Positions 32,983 to 39,243 of a DNA stretch of 39,413 nt are shown here, piece after piece. Position 1 is the stretch's first letter, and every line of letters begins with the position of its first letter. The stretch spans positions 941 to 40,353 of the forward strand of contig NZ_JAEHJZ010000023.1 of the NCBI RefSeq assembly GCF_016469035.1, given 5' to 3'. Source of the DNA: Gelidibacter salicanalis. GTDB taxonomy: Bacteria; Bacteroidota; Bacteroidia; Flavobacteriales; Flavobacteriaceae. The position numbers and the translations under genes were made by a program. The notes beneath the pieces were generated by a model. That model was given only the letters and a program-made list of their open reading frames with translations, was not told where the DNA came from and searched no databases.

Positions 32983-33056
32983 GGCCTCGTGGCGCAACTG
33001 AATAGCGCACTTGATTACGGCTCAAGAGGTTACTGGTTTGAATCCAGTCGAGGTCA
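32983..33056 (+). tRNA. tRNA-Arg (ACG)
   Basis: Cloverleaf: acceptor GGCCTCG/CGAGGTC, D stem GCGC/GCGC, anticodon stem CTTGA/TCAAG with loop TTACGGC (anticodon ACG, normally deaminated to ICG), T arm ACTGG-TTTGAAT-CCAGT, and discriminator A. CCA is not encoded. An integrase gene follows, so its 3' end is the probable attachment site of the downstream island. Confidence 0.95.
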
Positions 33057-33081
33057 CTCAAGGCTTTATCAAAAAGCACCA

Positions 33082-33122
33082 AAACCGCGCAAATCCTAGA
33101 ATTTGCGCGGTTTCTTGTTTTT
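33082..33122 (+). terminator. tRNA-Arg terminator
   Basis: AAACCGCGCAAAT (33082-33094) pairs perfectly with ATTTGCGCGGTTT (33101-33113) and is followed by a T-rich tract (TTTCTTGTTTTTT). It starts 26 bases after the tRNA. Confidence 0.88.
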
Positions 33123-33149
33123 TGGGAATTCATATAATTTGATGTTTTA

Positions 33150-33208
33150 TGGTAGCTTATGGTAGCTATTCGGTAAGTTCAGATTATAAATGGTAGCTTT
33201 AGCTACCA
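33150..33208. repeat. iterated TGGTAGCT sites before the integrase gene
   Basis: TGGTAGCT occurs at 33150, 33160 and 33191, and inverted as AGCTACCA at 33201-33208. The last two form a perfect 8-bp inverted repeat around TT. The first two are 10 bp apart. The position between the tRNA and int suits integrase arm-type or excisionase sites, or an int operator. Confidence 0.6.
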
Positions 33209-33300
33209 CGAAGGGATTCAACATAAGGTTGAATATTGGTTATTATTTTAGGTTTGATTTGACTTTCGCGATGATTCAAGTTTAATTTAAAGCCAAAGTT

Positions 33301-34665
33301 ATGCGTACTTCAAAAACATTTTCCATTCAATTTTGGATGGATACAAAGAAATCCAAGAATGGAGAGGGTCTCATTTATGCCAGAATTAATGTAGATCAAA
33401 AAAGATTGAGCATTAGTCTCAAAAGAAAGTTAGCCATGGAACAATGGGATTTCAAAACCCAGAAACATCAAGGTGCCTCACTGACCGCTAAGGAATTTAA
33501 CCGTTATTTGGATTTATCCAAATCGAAACTTTTTAGGTGTTATCAAGAGCTGCGTGATAACGGCGAGGAAGTGACCAGCAAAGCCATCAAGAATCTCTTT
33601 TTAAATGAAAATTCGAATGGCCACACTCTTCAGGATCTTATAGATTATCATTCAAAGAAAATTGAGAATACCCATGCTATTGGGTCAATTAGAAATTTCA
33701 AAGTTACTGAAGGTTATATTGAGCGGTTTTTAAAGAAGAAACGACTTGTGGATATTTCTCTATCAGGTTTGAATTTTGAGTTTTTGTGTGATTTTGAAAA
33801 CTTTCTCAATGCCTACTATCCAAAAGGCCATCCAAAAGCAATGAGTCATAATACCGTAACTAAACACATTCAACGCTTCCGAAAAATAGTAACGCTTGCA
33901 TACAATCTTGAATGGATAAAGGATGATCCCTTCCGTAGATGGAAATCGACATTTGACAAAGTGGACCGAGAGTTTTTGTCCGATAGCGAACTTTCTAAAC
34001 TGGCAACACATCATTTCCAGGTTGACCGACTGGACCGTGTACGGGATCTTTTTGTTTTCAGTTGTTACACGGGCATTTCATATGTTGATATCAGAAATTT
34101 AACTAAAAAGAATGTTTGGATTGGCGATGATGAGGGCAATAAATGGATTACCACTTTTAGGCAAAAGACGAATACTAAAATCAAGATTCCGTTATTGTTT
34201 CGTGCTGAACAGATCCTGAATAAATATGAAACCCATCCAGTCACTGAAATATCTGGTACCCTTTTGCCCTCTATAACAAATGAGAAGGCAAATCTTTATC
34301 TTAAAGAAATTGCTACTGAGGTTGGTATTGAAAAAAATCTGACCTTTCACATGGCACGTCACACTTTTGCAACAACGGTCGCTCTAAGCAATGGAATGCC
34401 TATTGAAACCGTTTCCAAAATATTAGGACATTCGAAAATTACAACCACTCAAATTTATGCTCGTGTCATGGATCACAAAATTAAGTCAGACATGGATGCC
34501 GTTCAAGAAAGGCTCAATGAAAAGGCGAGAAAACTTGAAGAGGAAAAAGAACTTATGCATTTACGGGAAAAGATTATTGCGGCCGAAAAGAAAAACTATT
34601 CCCATATGACGAAAGAAGAACTACTTAAGAAATTGAACAAAATAATGAACGAAAAATCGGATTAG
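33301..34665 (+). CDS. tyrosine site-specific integrase
   Basis: A 454-residue tyrosine recombinase that would integrate and excise the element beginning at tRNA-Arg. The N-terminal arm-binding domain (about 1-100) and SAM-like core-binding domain (about 108-215) precede the catalytic domain. Catalytic residues: H350-x-x-R353 (HMARHTF), H377 (ILGHS) and nucleophile Y386 (TTTQIYARV). The first Arg of the usual TGLR motif is Ser260 (CYTGISYVDIRNL), as in the IntDOT group of Bacteroidota elements. The last 50 residues are a Lys/Glu-rich coiled-coil tail. The gene points away from the tRNA. Function is secure; element type is not known. Confidence 0.93.
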   Translation: MRTSKTFSIQFWMDTKKSKNGEGLIYARINVDQKRLSISLKRKLAMEQWDFKTQKHQGASLTAKEFNRYLDLSKSKLFRCYQELRDNGEEVTSKAIKNLFLNENSNGHTLQDLIDYHSKKIENTHAIGSIRNFKVTEGYIERFLKKKRLVDISLSGLNFEFLCDFENFLNAYYPKGHPKAMSHNTVTKHIQRFRKIVTLAYNLEWIKDDPFRRWKSTFDKVDREFLSDSELSKLATHHFQVDRLDRVRDLFVFSCYTGISYVDIRNLTKKNVWIGDDEGNKWITTFRQKTNTKIKIPLLFRAEQILNKYETHPVTEISGTLLPSITNEKANLYLKEIATEVGIEKNLTFHMARHTFATTVALSNGMPIETVSKILGHSKITTTQIYARVMDHKIKSDMDAVQERLNEKARKLEEEKELMHLREKIIAAEKKNYSHMTKEELLKKLNKIMNEKSD

Positions 34666-35578: not shown

Positions 35579-37183
35579 ATGACCAAACTATTTATGACCC
35601 AAAACACTTCAAAAGCGGATATCAATTTTGAACAGGAATTATGGAAAGCTGCCAATGAGCTCCGCGGTGCTGTTGCAGAAAATCAATATAAAGATTTCGT
35701 ACTTCCTCTTATATTTCTAAAACACATTTCTGAACGCTACGAGATACGGCATGATCACTTGTTGGATCTTTTGAACGATAAAAAATCTGATTATTACACC
35801 TTAGATAAAGAAGAGCAACTTTACGTATTGGAAGATCCGGATGAATATCTTTCAAAGAATACCTATATCATTCCAAAAGAGGCGACATGGCAATTTTTAC
35901 AGGATAATGCAGAACAGGATAATATAAAAGTCCTGGTAGATGATGCCTTTGATTTGTTAGACCAGACTGTTGCTAATTTCAGACCCGATTTAAAAGGAAT
36001 CTTACCACGAATTTTCGTAAAAAGCCAATTGACCTCAAGACAGGTGGGCGGCCTTATTAATTTGTTGGCAAATCCTAAACTATCAGTTAAAGAAAATCCA
36101 GAGAGTGATATTCTTGGACGGGTTTATGAATATTATATTGGCAAATTCGCCATAGCTGAAGGCTCTGGTGCGGGACAGTTTTTTACGCCTGGCAGTATTG
36201 TAAGGTTGATGGTAGAAATGATTGAGCCTTTTGAAGGTAAAATTTTTGATGCTGCTTGTGGTTCTGGTGGCATGTTTGTACAATCTTTAAAATTCTTGCA
36301 GGCACATGGTGGCGACAAGCGCAATATTTCCATTTACGGGCAGGAACGTTATGATGGCACCTTGCGTTTATGTAAAATGAATTTGGCCTTACGTGATCTG
36401 TCTTTTGATGTGCGCTTGGGCGATTCATTATTGCAGGATAAATTCCCTGACTTGAAAGCGGATTTCATTATTGTTAATCCGCCCTTCAACGTGAGCCAAT
36501 GGCATCCCGAGGATCTGCCAGAAAATGATCCACGACTTTTTGGTCCTAAAGAAGAGTTTACTACGGATGGCAATGCCAACTATATGTGGATGCAGACTTT
36601 TTGGAGCCATTTGAGTGATAGGGGTACAGCCAGTGTAGTTATGGCAAATGGTGCGATGACTTCCAATAATAGAGGCGAAAAGAATGTGCGCCAGTTTATG
36701 GTGGATCATAGCATGATTGATTGTATTGTGAGGTTGCCGGATAAATTGTTTTTGACCACGGGCATTCCAGCATGCATTTTCATCTTGAGCAAAAACAGAG
36801 ATGGAAAAGATGGCACCCACAGAGAACGGACTAATGAAATCCTTTTCATTGACACCTCAAAGATGGGCACTATGGAAAGCCGTAAACTGAGAGTGTTTAC
36901 TGATGATGATATTGATAAAGTTACCGAAGTCTACCATAGTTGGCGGAACATAAACGCTTCCTATGAAAATGTTGATGGCTTTTGCTACAATGCCACTATT
37001 GACGAGGTTATAAAACAGGATTACAAATTAACGCCGGGGATCTACGTGGGCACCGAAGCAGTTGAAGACGATGGGATTCCTTTTGAAGATAAAATGGCCG
37101 ATTTAAAAATCCAATTGAAAGCACAATTTGAAAAAGGCAACACATTGCAGAAAAAAATAATAGAAAATTTTGAAAAATTTTAA
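35579..37183 (+). CDS. hsdM: type I restriction-modification methyltransferase subunit HsdM
   Basis: Adenine-N6 DNA methyltransferase subunit that needs HsdS for sequence recognition. Residues about 15-150 are the HsdM N-terminal helical domain (ELWKAANELRGAVAENQYKD); then the SAM motif FDAACGSGGMF (about 222-232), QERYDGTLRLCKMNL, and the catalytic NPPF at 300-303 (preceded by DFIIVN). The C-terminal HsdS-interacting region follows, with DGKDG and YKLTPGIYVG motifs; 534 residues is normal. The ATG at 35594 (MTQNTSKAD) is an alternative start. It is followed by an AbiE toxin-antitoxin pair in place of hsdS. Confidence 0.95.
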   Translation: MTKLFMTQNTSKADINFEQELWKAANELRGAVAENQYKDFVLPLIFLKHISERYEIRHDHLLDLLNDKKSDYYTLDKEEQLYVLEDPDEYLSKNTYIIPKEATWQFLQDNAEQDNIKVLVDDAFDLLDQTVANFRPDLKGILPRIFVKSQLTSRQVGGLINLLANPKLSVKENPESDILGRVYEYYIGKFAIAEGSGAGQFFTPGSIVRLMVEMIEPFEGKIFDAACGSGGMFVQSLKFLQAHGGDKRNISIYGQERYDGTLRLCKMNLALRDLSFDVRLGDSLLQDKFPDLKADFIIVNPPFNVSQWHPEDLPENDPRLFGPKEEFTTDGNANYMWMQTFWSHLSDRGTASVVMANGAMTSNNRGEKNVRQFMVDHSMIDCIVRLPDKLFLTTGIPACIFILSKNRDGKDGTHRERTNEILFIDTSKMGTMESRKLRVFTDDDIDKVTEVYHSWRNINASYENVDGFCYNATIDEVIKQDYKLTPGIYVGTEAVEDDGIPFEDKMADLKIQLKAQFEKGNTLQKKIIENFEKF

Positions 37184-37187
37184 AATC

Positions 37188-37327
37188 TGTTCATTATAAA
37201 TTGATGTTCATGGAAACTGGACAGTCGTTAGAGTTGAACAAAAGTGCGATAATTCAGTAAAAATCAATATATGTTCATTATATTTGATTGTTCATGTAAC
37301 ATGAACAAAATTAAAAATTGAACAAAA
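37188..37327 (+). promoter_or_regulatory. 84-bp-spaced double operator of the AbiE pair
   Basis: The bipartite motif TGTTCATTATA-N6-TGTTCATG occurs at 37188-37212 and 37272-37296, exactly 84 bp apart. TTGAACAAAA also recurs 84 bp apart (37234 and 37318), so the interval is a diverged tandem duplication. The second copy continues into a perfect inverted repeat TTGTTCATG-TAA-CATGAACAA (37288-37308). It lies directly before the antitoxin ATG at 37327. AbiEi antitoxins are known to bind repeats upstream of their genes and repress them, so an autoregulatory operator is the natural reading. Confidence 0.7.
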
Positions 37328-38349
37328 TGGAGTTTGTTAAGTTAAAAGATTGGTTTCAGAATTTGGATTTTGAGGTGGCCATCAAAAAGATTCAATCGCA
37401 TGACGGCGTTGTGGACTTAGTGATAAGCCTTAATGACGAAAAGGTATATGCTGAATTGAAAAGGGAAGTGCGGCCACAGCACCTTGCCATTTTCGAAGGA
37501 ATGGCCGAGCAGAGAACGCCTTTTTTGGTCGCTGCCGATTATATTACGCCCAATGCCAAAACACATTTAAAAGCTAAGAAAATCAATTATATTGATAGTT
37601 TCGGCAATGCATATATCGACTTAACCCATCTTAAAGTATATATTGAAAAAGATAATGCAAGACCTATTAACAGTGAGCACTCCAATGTATTTACGCCCAC
37701 TGCAGGACAAGTCATTTTTCAGCTTCTTAAAAACCCAGAACAGATCAATGCCACCCAAAGGCATTTGTCTCATGTCAGCAATGTGTCCTTAGGTAGTGTC
37801 AGCAAATGTTTGCAAGGTCTGATTGATGAAGGCTATGTGGCAAAGTGGAGTGAAGATCAAAAATATCAGTTGGTAAGAAAAGAGGAATTATTGGACAAAT
37901 GGATCATTCTATTGAACGAAAAAATTCTTCCAGCTCACAAAATCGGAACCTATAAGTTTTCTAAAAGCCATGCAGAACGTTGGAATGAACAGTTTATAAA
38001 TAGCGGCGTGCTTTGGGCAGGAGAACCTGCTGCAGCATTATTGACCAACTATCTGAATCCTGAAATGTTTTCATTATTCACTAACACCAGAAAACATAAT
38101 ATTACAAAGGACTTGAGGTTGCTTCCCGATGCCAACGGCGATATAAATGTTTATAAACCTTTTTGGGTGGACGATGAAATGATGGGGCAATCTAAAAATT
38201 ATATGAGTCACGAAAACGTGGTCCATCCATTGATTATATATGCCCAATTAGTATACAGCGGTAATAACAGAAATATAGAAACAGCACAACTACTATTTAA
38301 TGAGTACATCCAACCCAACTTACAAGGACTATTCCTTTCAAAACCATAG
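37327..38349 (+). CDS. abiEi: AbiEi-family type IV antitoxin with restriction-endonuclease-like N-domain
   Basis: A 340-residue transcriptional regulator/antitoxin of the AbiEi group. The frame opens with TTG at 37318, but the ATG at 37327 (MEFVKLKDWF) is the better start. Residues about 1-110 look like a PD-(D/E)XK fold with a plausible catalytic set, D30 (VVDLVIS) and E43-x-K45 (AELKRE), and the segment LKAKKINYIDSFGNAYIDL. About 122-190 is a winged helix-turn-helix (NATQRHLSHVSNVSLGSVSK), and about 205-340 is the AbiEi-type C-terminal domain. It precedes, and overlaps by 50 bp, the AbiEii toxin gene. Whether the nuclease-like domain is active is unknown. Confidence 0.85.
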   Translation: MEFVKLKDWFQNLDFEVAIKKIQSHDGVVDLVISLNDEKVYAELKREVRPQHLAIFEGMAEQRTPFLVAADYITPNAKTHLKAKKINYIDSFGNAYIDLTHLKVYIEKDNARPINSEHSNVFTPTAGQVIFQLLKNPEQINATQRHLSHVSNVSLGSVSKCLQGLIDEGYVAKWSEDQKYQLVRKEELLDKWIILLNEKILPAHKIGTYKFSKSHAERWNEQFINSGVLWAGEPAAALLTNYLNPEMFSLFTNTRKHNITKDLRLLPDANGDINVYKPFWVDDEMMGQSKNYMSHENVVHPLIIYAQLVYSGNNRNIETAQLLFNEYIQPNLQGLFLSKP

Positions 38350-39151
38350 TGAAGTCTATAAACCTCTAAAGCAGATATTCTCCAATTACGGTATCACGTA
38401 TTATCTCATTGGTGCCAACGCCAGGGATGTACATTTGTATAAAAGCGGCATCAAACCTATACGCGCTACGGCGGATATAGATTTCGCAATCATGGTACCG
38501 GATTTTGTTAGTTACAATGCCTTGATAACAGAATTGTGTACGATGGGGTTTAGCCGCGTAGCTGAGCCTTACCGGATCGTTTATGATAAAACAAACACCA
38601 TATTGGATTTAATGCCTTATGGCGAAATTGAAGAGGCCTATACTGTTAATTTCACGGAAAGAGCGGTGTCTCTATCGGTTTTGGGCTTTAAAGAAGTAGG
38701 GGAGCATATCCAACATATTGACATCCCCGAAGAAGGCTATTCATTACCAGTCACACCTATTGAAGGGATGTTTATTTTAAAATTATTGGCTTGGAATGAT
38801 AAACCAAGTTTTAGGACAAAAGATCTTGATGATTTGTCTTTTTTATTGAAACACGCTTGGGATATCTATGAAGAAGAAGCATATACCGAACATTTGGAAG
38901 TTTTTGACGATAATCAATTTAATACACAAACCGCAGCGGCAAAAATAATTGGCAAAAAAATGGGGCTTATATTAGCTGAAAATGAAATTTTAAATCAAAC
39001 CATTTCCACAATTCTTACTGAAGCAATAAAAGACGATGGCAAAGCCAAAAATCCAGAGTTGGCCGTGGCCCAAAATTTGGATATCAGCATTGAAAAAGCT
39101 AAAAATATTTTAACCTACCTCCTTGCGGGTATCAATCAAAACAGAGTATAA
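38300..39151 (+). CDS. abiEii: AbiEii/AbiGii-family nucleotidyltransferase toxin
   Basis: A 283-residue nucleotidyltransferase toxin of the AbiE type IV toxin-antitoxin family; studied members transfer nucleotides to tRNA acceptor ends and stop growth, often upon phage infection. The polymerase-beta-like motif is visible as GANARDVHLY (from G38) with the acidic pair D59-x-D61 in ATADIDFAIMV; a downstream Lys-containing helix (GMFILKLLAWNDKPSFRTKDLDDL) matches the family. The ATG lies inside the end of the antitoxin gene (50-bp overlap), pointing to coupled translation. Its stop overlaps the hsdS ATG (TAATG). Confidence 0.9.
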   Translation: MSTSNPTYKDYSFQNHSEVYKPLKQIFSNYGITYYLIGANARDVHLYKSGIKPIRATADIDFAIMVPDFVSYNALITELCTMGFSRVAEPYRIVYDKTNTILDLMPYGEIEEAYTVNFTERAVSLSVLGFKEVGEHIQHIDIPEEGYSLPVTPIEGMFILKLLAWNDKPSFRTKDLDDLSFLLKHAWDIYEEEAYTEHLEVFDDNQFNTQTAAAKIIGKKMGLILAENEILNQTISTILTEAIKDDGKAKNPELAVAQNLDISIEKAKNILTYLLAGINQNRV

Positions 39152-39243
39152 TGCCGAAAAATTGGAAAACATATAAGCTTGGAACGGTAGCAGATATTCA
39201 AAACGGATATGCTTTTAAATCTTCTGAATTAGTCGAACCTTAA
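39151..39243 (+). pseudogene. hsdS: hsdS 5' fragment, cut by an insertion sequence
   Basis: The ATG overlaps the toxin stop codon. The 30 codons read MPKNWKTYKLGTVADIQNGY-AFKSSELVEP, then TAA. This is a typical N-terminus of the first target-recognition domain of type I specificity subunits (WK.xKLGxVAxIQNGxAFKS). Normal HsdS is about 400 residues. The frame is lost around 39235-39245, where sequence unlike hsdS begins and leads to a transposase start, so an insertion sequence appears to have interrupted the gene. The rest may lie beyond the window. Confidence 0.8.

Follow-up and report, generated by a model that had tools for sequence, protein, structure and literature searches.

The window, by which we mean the whole analysed stretch of 39,413 nucleotides from a Gelidibacter salicanalis contig, holds a predicted AbiE toxin-antitoxin gene pair (type IV) behind a type I restriction-modification gene, with two copies of a nested inverted repeat in the gap between them, all on the forward (+) strand. 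The gene upstream of the repeats, hsdM (35579..37183), encodes the methyltransferase subunit (PF02384, E=1.7e-94; HsdM_N, E=4.1e-20), and its stop codon ends at 37183. Beyond the gap lie abiEi (37327..38349), for a predicted antitoxin and regulator of 340 aa (PF09952, E=1.5e-21, 77.7 bits against a cut-off of 21), and abiEii (38300..39151), for a nucleotidyltransferase toxin (PF08843, E=5.6e-7, 30.2 bits against 22.5). The two reading frames share 50 nt, and the two profile matches bear out the AbiEi/AbiEii pair that a preliminary description had placed here; no AbiE model in PADLOC or NCBIfam matched either protein. The ATG of a probable hsdS start (39151..39243, assigned by eye) overlaps the abiEii stop codon, and the frame is broken off after 30 codons. 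In Gelidibacter pelagius, whose AbiEi homologue is 94% identical to the window's, abiEii is followed by a decayed frame with an hsdS-like start (by eye). A tRNA-Arg adjoins a tyrosine integrase gene within window positions 32983-34665, which gives the hsdM-abiE block the look of an integrated island.

The AbiEi_2 domain forms the C-terminal part of AbiEi, a winged helix is probable around residues 123-173, and a MarR_2 match reached 24.7 bits, under its cut-off of 27. When residues 1-120 (window 37327-37686) were searched alone they matched Mrr_cat (PF04471) at 22.6 bits against a cut-off of 21, and the N-termini of three other AbiEi proteins gave one sub-threshold Hjc match and two without any match. 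One N-terminal lysine is nearly invariant among 28 AbiEi homologues, but by eye its acidic partner is not, and this restriction-endonuclease-like, Mrr_cat-like domain is therefore probably inactive.

The preliminary description reported TGTTCATTATA-N6-TGTTCATG twice, and these copies do begin at 37188 and 37272, exactly 84 bp apart; TTGAACAAAA likewise recurs at exactly 84 bp (37234 and 37318). That observation is real but captures half of the pattern, as its two direct-repeat parts belong to a larger unit of 53 bp, TGTTCA-N11-TGTTCA-N7-TGAACA-N11-TGAACA, in which two direct half-sites at 17 bp are followed by two inverted half-sites at 17 bp (start-to-start spacings 17/13/17 bp for half-sites of 6 bp). 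What had been read as direct repeats plus one palindrome is thus a single inverted repeat of four half-sites, and direct repeats alone can be dismissed as the unit, since homologous loci show all four. Units were scored against a 24-position half-site template. The distal unit (37188..37240, 23/24) begins 4 nt past the hsdM stop codon and has the half-sites TGTTCAT at 37188, TGTTCAT at 37205, a degenerate CTGGACA at 37217 and TTGAACA at 37234. A linker of 31 bp (37241..37271) completes the 84-bp period, and the proximal unit (37272..37324, 24/24), with TGTTCAT at 37272, TGTTCAT at 37289, ATGAACA at 37301 and TTGAACA at 37318, stops 2 nt short of the abiEi ATG. The next-best score in the window is 17, for a position overlapping the proximal unit, and 300 dinucleotide shuffles of the 700-bp region gave a maximum of 17; allowing up to three mismatches, the whole genome holds only the two window sites, and none for the reversed pattern. 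The central palindrome had been described as confined to the proximal copy, which is so in the window but not in G. pelagius, where the third distal half-site reads CTGAACA rather than CTGGACA, the distal half-sites are kept and the distal copy also scores 24/24. TAnnTTTG is the -7-type promoter consensus of Bacteroidota; an element of this kind, TATATTTG (37279..37286), lies between proximal half-sites 1 and 2, and the distal unit has no TAnnTTTG.

The unit recurs upstream of abiEi well beyond this genus. With spacers allowed to vary by one base, and an upstream stretch of up to 600 nt (less was covered for L089, L024, L097 and L015), a unit scoring at least 20/24 was found upstream of abiEi in 54 of the 56 best-matching homologous loci, all in Bacteroidota and not all independent of one another; by comparison, 600-nt coding controls gave three matches of 18 or more among 56. 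AbiEi identity to the window's protein is as low as 26% among the 28 aligned homologues. In the template-scanned loci, 1-24 nt separate the end of the unit from the next ATG; the last spacing is 16 rather than 17 bp in one clade, and the centre is 8 bp in another. The two exceptions are L113, which carries a TGTACA version, and L110, where nothing convincing was found. Not counted among the 56 are L011-L014 and L037, which are weak or fragmentary, L085, a duplicate, and L004, the locus of the window itself; of these, L012 has a 24/24 unit, and L011, L013, L014 and L037 have none scoring 17 or more. Given this distribution, the repeats are very probably the antitoxin's operator, as the preliminary description had proposed.

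A wider sample sets a limit on that conservation. Twenty further AbiEi matches from the phylum were examined, 13 strong (E<=1e-30) and 7 weak. A clear unit (at least 21/24) lies upstream in 6 of the 13 strong ones, and the remaining seven score 16-20/24, the same range as shuffles in a free-word scan, so the TGTTCA operator is not universal in the AbiEi family, and the claim of family-wide conservation was lowered on this recount. The weak matches score 12-17. The seven strong homologues without a clear TGTTCA unit (L241-L244 and L246-L248, from genomes G1103, G890, G833, G1066, G1084 and G789) may use another operator. Our estimate for the operator at the window itself is unchanged, because the clade of the window's AbiEi keeps the unit throughout.

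Searching from the motif rather than from the protein, we found the pattern within two mismatches in 30 of 397 genomes of the family, and its reversed control in none. A protein search detected AbiEi in 22 of the 30, two more have AbiEi remnants at the site (G627, by profile, as fragments; G447, by eye only), and the search for AbiEi found none in the other six. Conversely, four of 26 AbiEi-bearing family genomes are without the pattern, two having broken genes and two an 8-bp centre. Operator-like units also stand beside hipB/hipA-like genes (by eye) at L072:5064-5116 and L075:5073-5125, in genomes where no AbiEi was detected. Eight of the 37 plasmid records with an AbiEi match were compared. 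The Diaphorobacter plasmid, which is betaproteobacterial and so outside Bacteroidota, has a 24/24 unit, as do the Hymenobacter and Persicobacter plasmids, and each of these three units overlaps the annotated abiEi start by 7 nt; the Paraburkholderia plasmid, also from outside the phylum, has a unit of 20/24, those of Vibrio gigantis and of the cyanobacteria Synechococcus and Crinalium have none (best score 16 or less), and the Spirosoma record is cut at the annotated start.

Of 51 cellular operators, 28 have TAnnTTTG at +7 or -6 relative to the start of the unit, either inside it or overlapping it, and 23 lack the element. The residue aligned to Ser157, which probably sits in the recognition helix, covaries with the base that follows the inner-left TGTTCA: T goes with Ser (16/18), C with Asn (16/20), A with Thr (13/14) and G with Ser (3/3). 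The Ser157 column ranks third of 286 by strength of association, but the mean association within the winged helix (0.317) is not above that of the rest of the protein (0.329). Because the winged helix is no more strongly associated than the remainder of AbiEi, descent explains part of the link between residue 157 and the base, which is confounded by clade.

From these sites, their conservation and their link to abiEi we infer, with high confidence, that the four-half-site unit is the operator of PF09952-type AbiEi, and that the protein most likely binds the proximal 53-bp unit. Both the -7-like element and the predicted start of transcription lie within that unit, so that AbiEi bound there would repress the operon that encodes it. 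The distal unit, which lies 84 bp further upstream in helical phase and has no promoter element, would most likely be an auxiliary operator, raising occupancy or letting two bound units touch. Taken as a whole, the region is probably an AbiE promoter-operator with a proximal unit for autorepression and a distal auxiliary one; that the distal unit actually works in this way is put forward tentatively, as a close call.

Doubling is rare, and the 84-bp period is not general. Besides the window and G. pelagius, both with 84 bp, two units were found in one other genus (G468, 74 bp, with a distal unit of 22/24 and a proximal unit whose last spacing is 18 bp) and in one other family (G970, 54 bp, with units of 22/24 and 21/24). 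No second unit of 20 or more appeared in the other loci of the 56, within an upstream stretch of up to 600 nt; in G486 a partial unit of 20/24 stands 1014 bp upstream. The conserved 84-bp spacing anticipated in the preliminary description is thus excluded as a shared trait, most homologues having one unit and the other doubled loci being spaced differently. At 10.5 bp per turn, spacings of 84, 74 and 54 bp amount to 8.0, 7.05 and 5.14 turns, all near whole turns, which fits binding on the same face of the helix but comes from just three independent cases; a looping or graded switch, as had been suggested, may operate here. Compared with G. pelagius, the window shows a single half-site change in 56 positions, which falls in the distal unit, against 10 changes in the 81 other bases (one-sided Fisher p=0.022). 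Within the window, distal and proximal units agree at 26 of 28 half-site positions and at 11 of 25 spacer positions. Set against the drifted spacers, half-sites so alike imply that the two copies are not fresh and that the half-sites seem to be maintained.

The strongest competitor to an auxiliary site is that the distal unit is a non-working relic, left by an earlier abiE insertion in the hsdM-hsdS gap, with the proximal unit acting alone. At L071:5060-5112, in genome G370, a 23/24 unit immediately follows an hsdM with 84% identity to that of the window and precedes an ATPase-like gene (by eye); no AbiEi was detected in that genome. It is this lone unit behind a related hsdM that keeps a relic in play, and the degenerate third half-site of the window's distal unit points the same way. 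Against it, the distal half-sites are nearly intact although the spacers have drifted from those of the proximal unit, the G. pelagius distal unit is a perfect match, and the two units are a whole number of helical turns apart. We regard a relic as a possible origin that falls short of an even chance. The distal unit could instead act on the gene upstream, with bound AbiEi blocking restriction-modification read-through into abiE and hsdS, in keeping with the position of a unit immediately behind the hsdM stop codon both in the window and in G370, and with the hsdS-like remnant (by eye) after abiE at both Gelidibacter loci. This is unlikely, since only 2 of 29 HsdM homologues are followed by a unit (the window's and that of G370), and G. 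pelagius keeps its distal unit with only the tail of hsdM left. The same count excludes the unit as a general hsdM-linked element.

Beyond the cellular loci, exact copies of the motif occur in at least 120 viral stretches (IMG/VR contigs, L116-L235), and controls with the reversed word or with 15-bp spacings returned none. Close variants turned up less often: an 8-bp centre in 13 cases, a last spacing of 16 bp in 10, spacings of 18 bp in 6 and TGTACA words in 3. Among the 120 loci collected (at least 120 exist), the search for AbiEi found it in one and not in the other 119; it is also present at two of the six loci with 18-bp spacings (L288 and L290). We searched 49 viral records of 20-340 kb over their whole length (those listed above about 20 kb, apart from L175 and L196-L235; some may be fragments), and each of the 49 holds exactly one site at up to three mismatches, with AbiEi in one of them by both PF09952 and the family profile. 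The 120 loci form 50 blastn groups and range in GC from 0.22 to 0.60.

The viral sites lie mostly between genes. Only 12 of 90 distinct sites fall inside ORFs of 100 aa or more, whereas 66% of random positions do. Among the remaining 78, a gene 3' end is found within 15 nt of 11 sites (14%, as against 4% at random) and a gene 5' end within 30 nt of 2 (5.4% at random). A tRNA or tmRNA is present at 36 of the 120 loci (again of at least 120), and within 15 nt of the site at 27, which make up 8 blastn groups. Twenty-two of these 27 sites lie 1-3 nt past a tRNA 3' end, and the L160 site overlaps a tRNA by one base. Such closeness is not rare by chance in tRNA-rich loci: for the near cases, 2.5-62% of random positions in the same locus are as close. 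A common gene beside the sites can be discarded, the largest cluster reaching 10 of 120 loci, and so can a structured RNA at sites without a tRNA, as Rfam run on 15 of the 84 loci lacking an ARAGORN tRNA returned a single tRNA at a distance of 3 kb. When the surroundings of eight viral sites were compared with named phages by blastn, two gave no match and six only partial similarity, to tRNA, terminase, lysin, endonuclease or unannotated stretches. A search for AbiEi relatives gave no match among named phages and no lead among viral contigs.

As the viral copies were collected as exact matches, half-site constraint among them cannot be read, and the informative positions are those outside the search pattern. 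Spacer positions 7-10 are A/T-rich even in the 20 GC-rich viral loci (0.82 vs 0.46 locus-wide), and the viral and cellular spacer profiles correlate at r=0.87. In the class with an 8-bp centre, all 13 viral sites, of which several are identical copies, have C/G at base 7, and so do the three cellular ones. TAnnTTTG is rare at viral sites (10 of 240 orientations); as it is a Bacteroidota-type element, its lack says little about phages of other hosts. The viral copies look like bare binding sites for AbiEi-type proteins. Mimicry, with the site as decoy or sensor, seems to us likelier than chance or an unrelated protein: phages might carry mimics of the AbiEi operator whose replicating sites titrate or redirect the host's AbiEi, disarming or sensing a tRNA-attacking toxin, a proposal that we advance with reserve. 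On the chromosome, the distal unit of the window may correspond to such a bare phage site.

Loci of this kind also raise the question of whether the unit belongs to some other DNA-binding protein, the abiEi genes being merely neighbours. The virtual absence of detected AbiEi from the viral loci and the six motif-bearing family genomes where none was found would suit such a protein; we consider it very unlikely, given that 22 of the 30 motif-bearing family genomes have AbiEi and two more its remnants, and that the viral sites share no gene family, the cluster of 10 loci noted above being the largest within 4 kb. That the repeats form an RNA hairpin (an attenuator) in the leader is hardly credible: the inner half-sites are complementary, but recognition as DNA is suggested by the 17-bp direct repeats and the common half-site code, and if transcription began a few nucleotides downstream of TATATTTG, the left arm would be only partly transcribed.

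If AbiEi does read this unit, PF09952-type AbiE systems have a specific DNA code by which they can be found, grouped and tested. The covariation of one half-site base with one residue of the probable recognition helix makes the code testable by mutation. Should the viral site, single and bare on contigs of 22 to 60% GC, work as a decoy, phages would be countering the defence by mimicking its operator, and AbiE would be linked to phage tRNA arrays.

In the open-licence literature we found no described operator for AbiE of the PF09952 type, which we take to correspond to COG4861, and no report of phage operator decoys. By Pfam, which assigns PF09952, the window's AbiEi does not appear to be of the COG5340 type, its unit of 6-bp half-sites at 17/13/17 bp does not have the COG5340 layout of paired 23-bp inverted repeats, and a profile search of PDB sequences returned none named AbiEi or Rv2827c among 11 matches at E<=1. 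The available passages on AbiE of Streptococcus agalactiae name COG4861-COG4849 as another class, without describing an operator for it (PMC3985639). In the S. agalactiae system itself, according to those passages, a COG5340 AbiEi binds inverted repeats in its own promoter and represses it (PMC3985639). The two systems are alike in having an AbiEi/AbiEii bicistron, and the autorepression through inverted repeats established there is what we would predict here; they differ in that the S. agalactiae repeats are two of 23 bp, 3 bp apart, with TGTTGCTTTTA, whereas here there are four TGTTCA half-sites, and in the antitoxin family, COG5340 there and PF09952 here (PMC3985639). The cooperative, DNA-bending AbiEi that the preliminary description took as its model is likewise a COG5340 protein, whereas the window's matches PF09952. 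The closest parallel to the doubling is Rv2827c-Rv2826c of Mycobacterium tuberculosis, where, in the portion of the report consulted, two pairs of 23-bp inverted repeats lie upstream of a type IV antitoxin (PMC7319586); we calculate from that description that the pairs are 63 bp apart, or 6.0 turns. Both loci thus have a doubled operator upstream of such an antitoxin, but in M. tuberculosis the antitoxin is of the COG5340 family, the repeats are others and negative cooperativity was measured, whereas the case made here is drawn from sequence (PMC7319586). Finally, phage tRNAs have been proposed, in the excerpted text, as decoys, either bait or backup, against AbiE toxins (PMC7725324). That proposal, like ours, ties phage tRNA genes to AbiE resistance; unlike it, the observation made here concerns what appears to be the repressor's DNA site itself, carried by phages and sometimes placed inside their tRNA arrays (PMC7725324).
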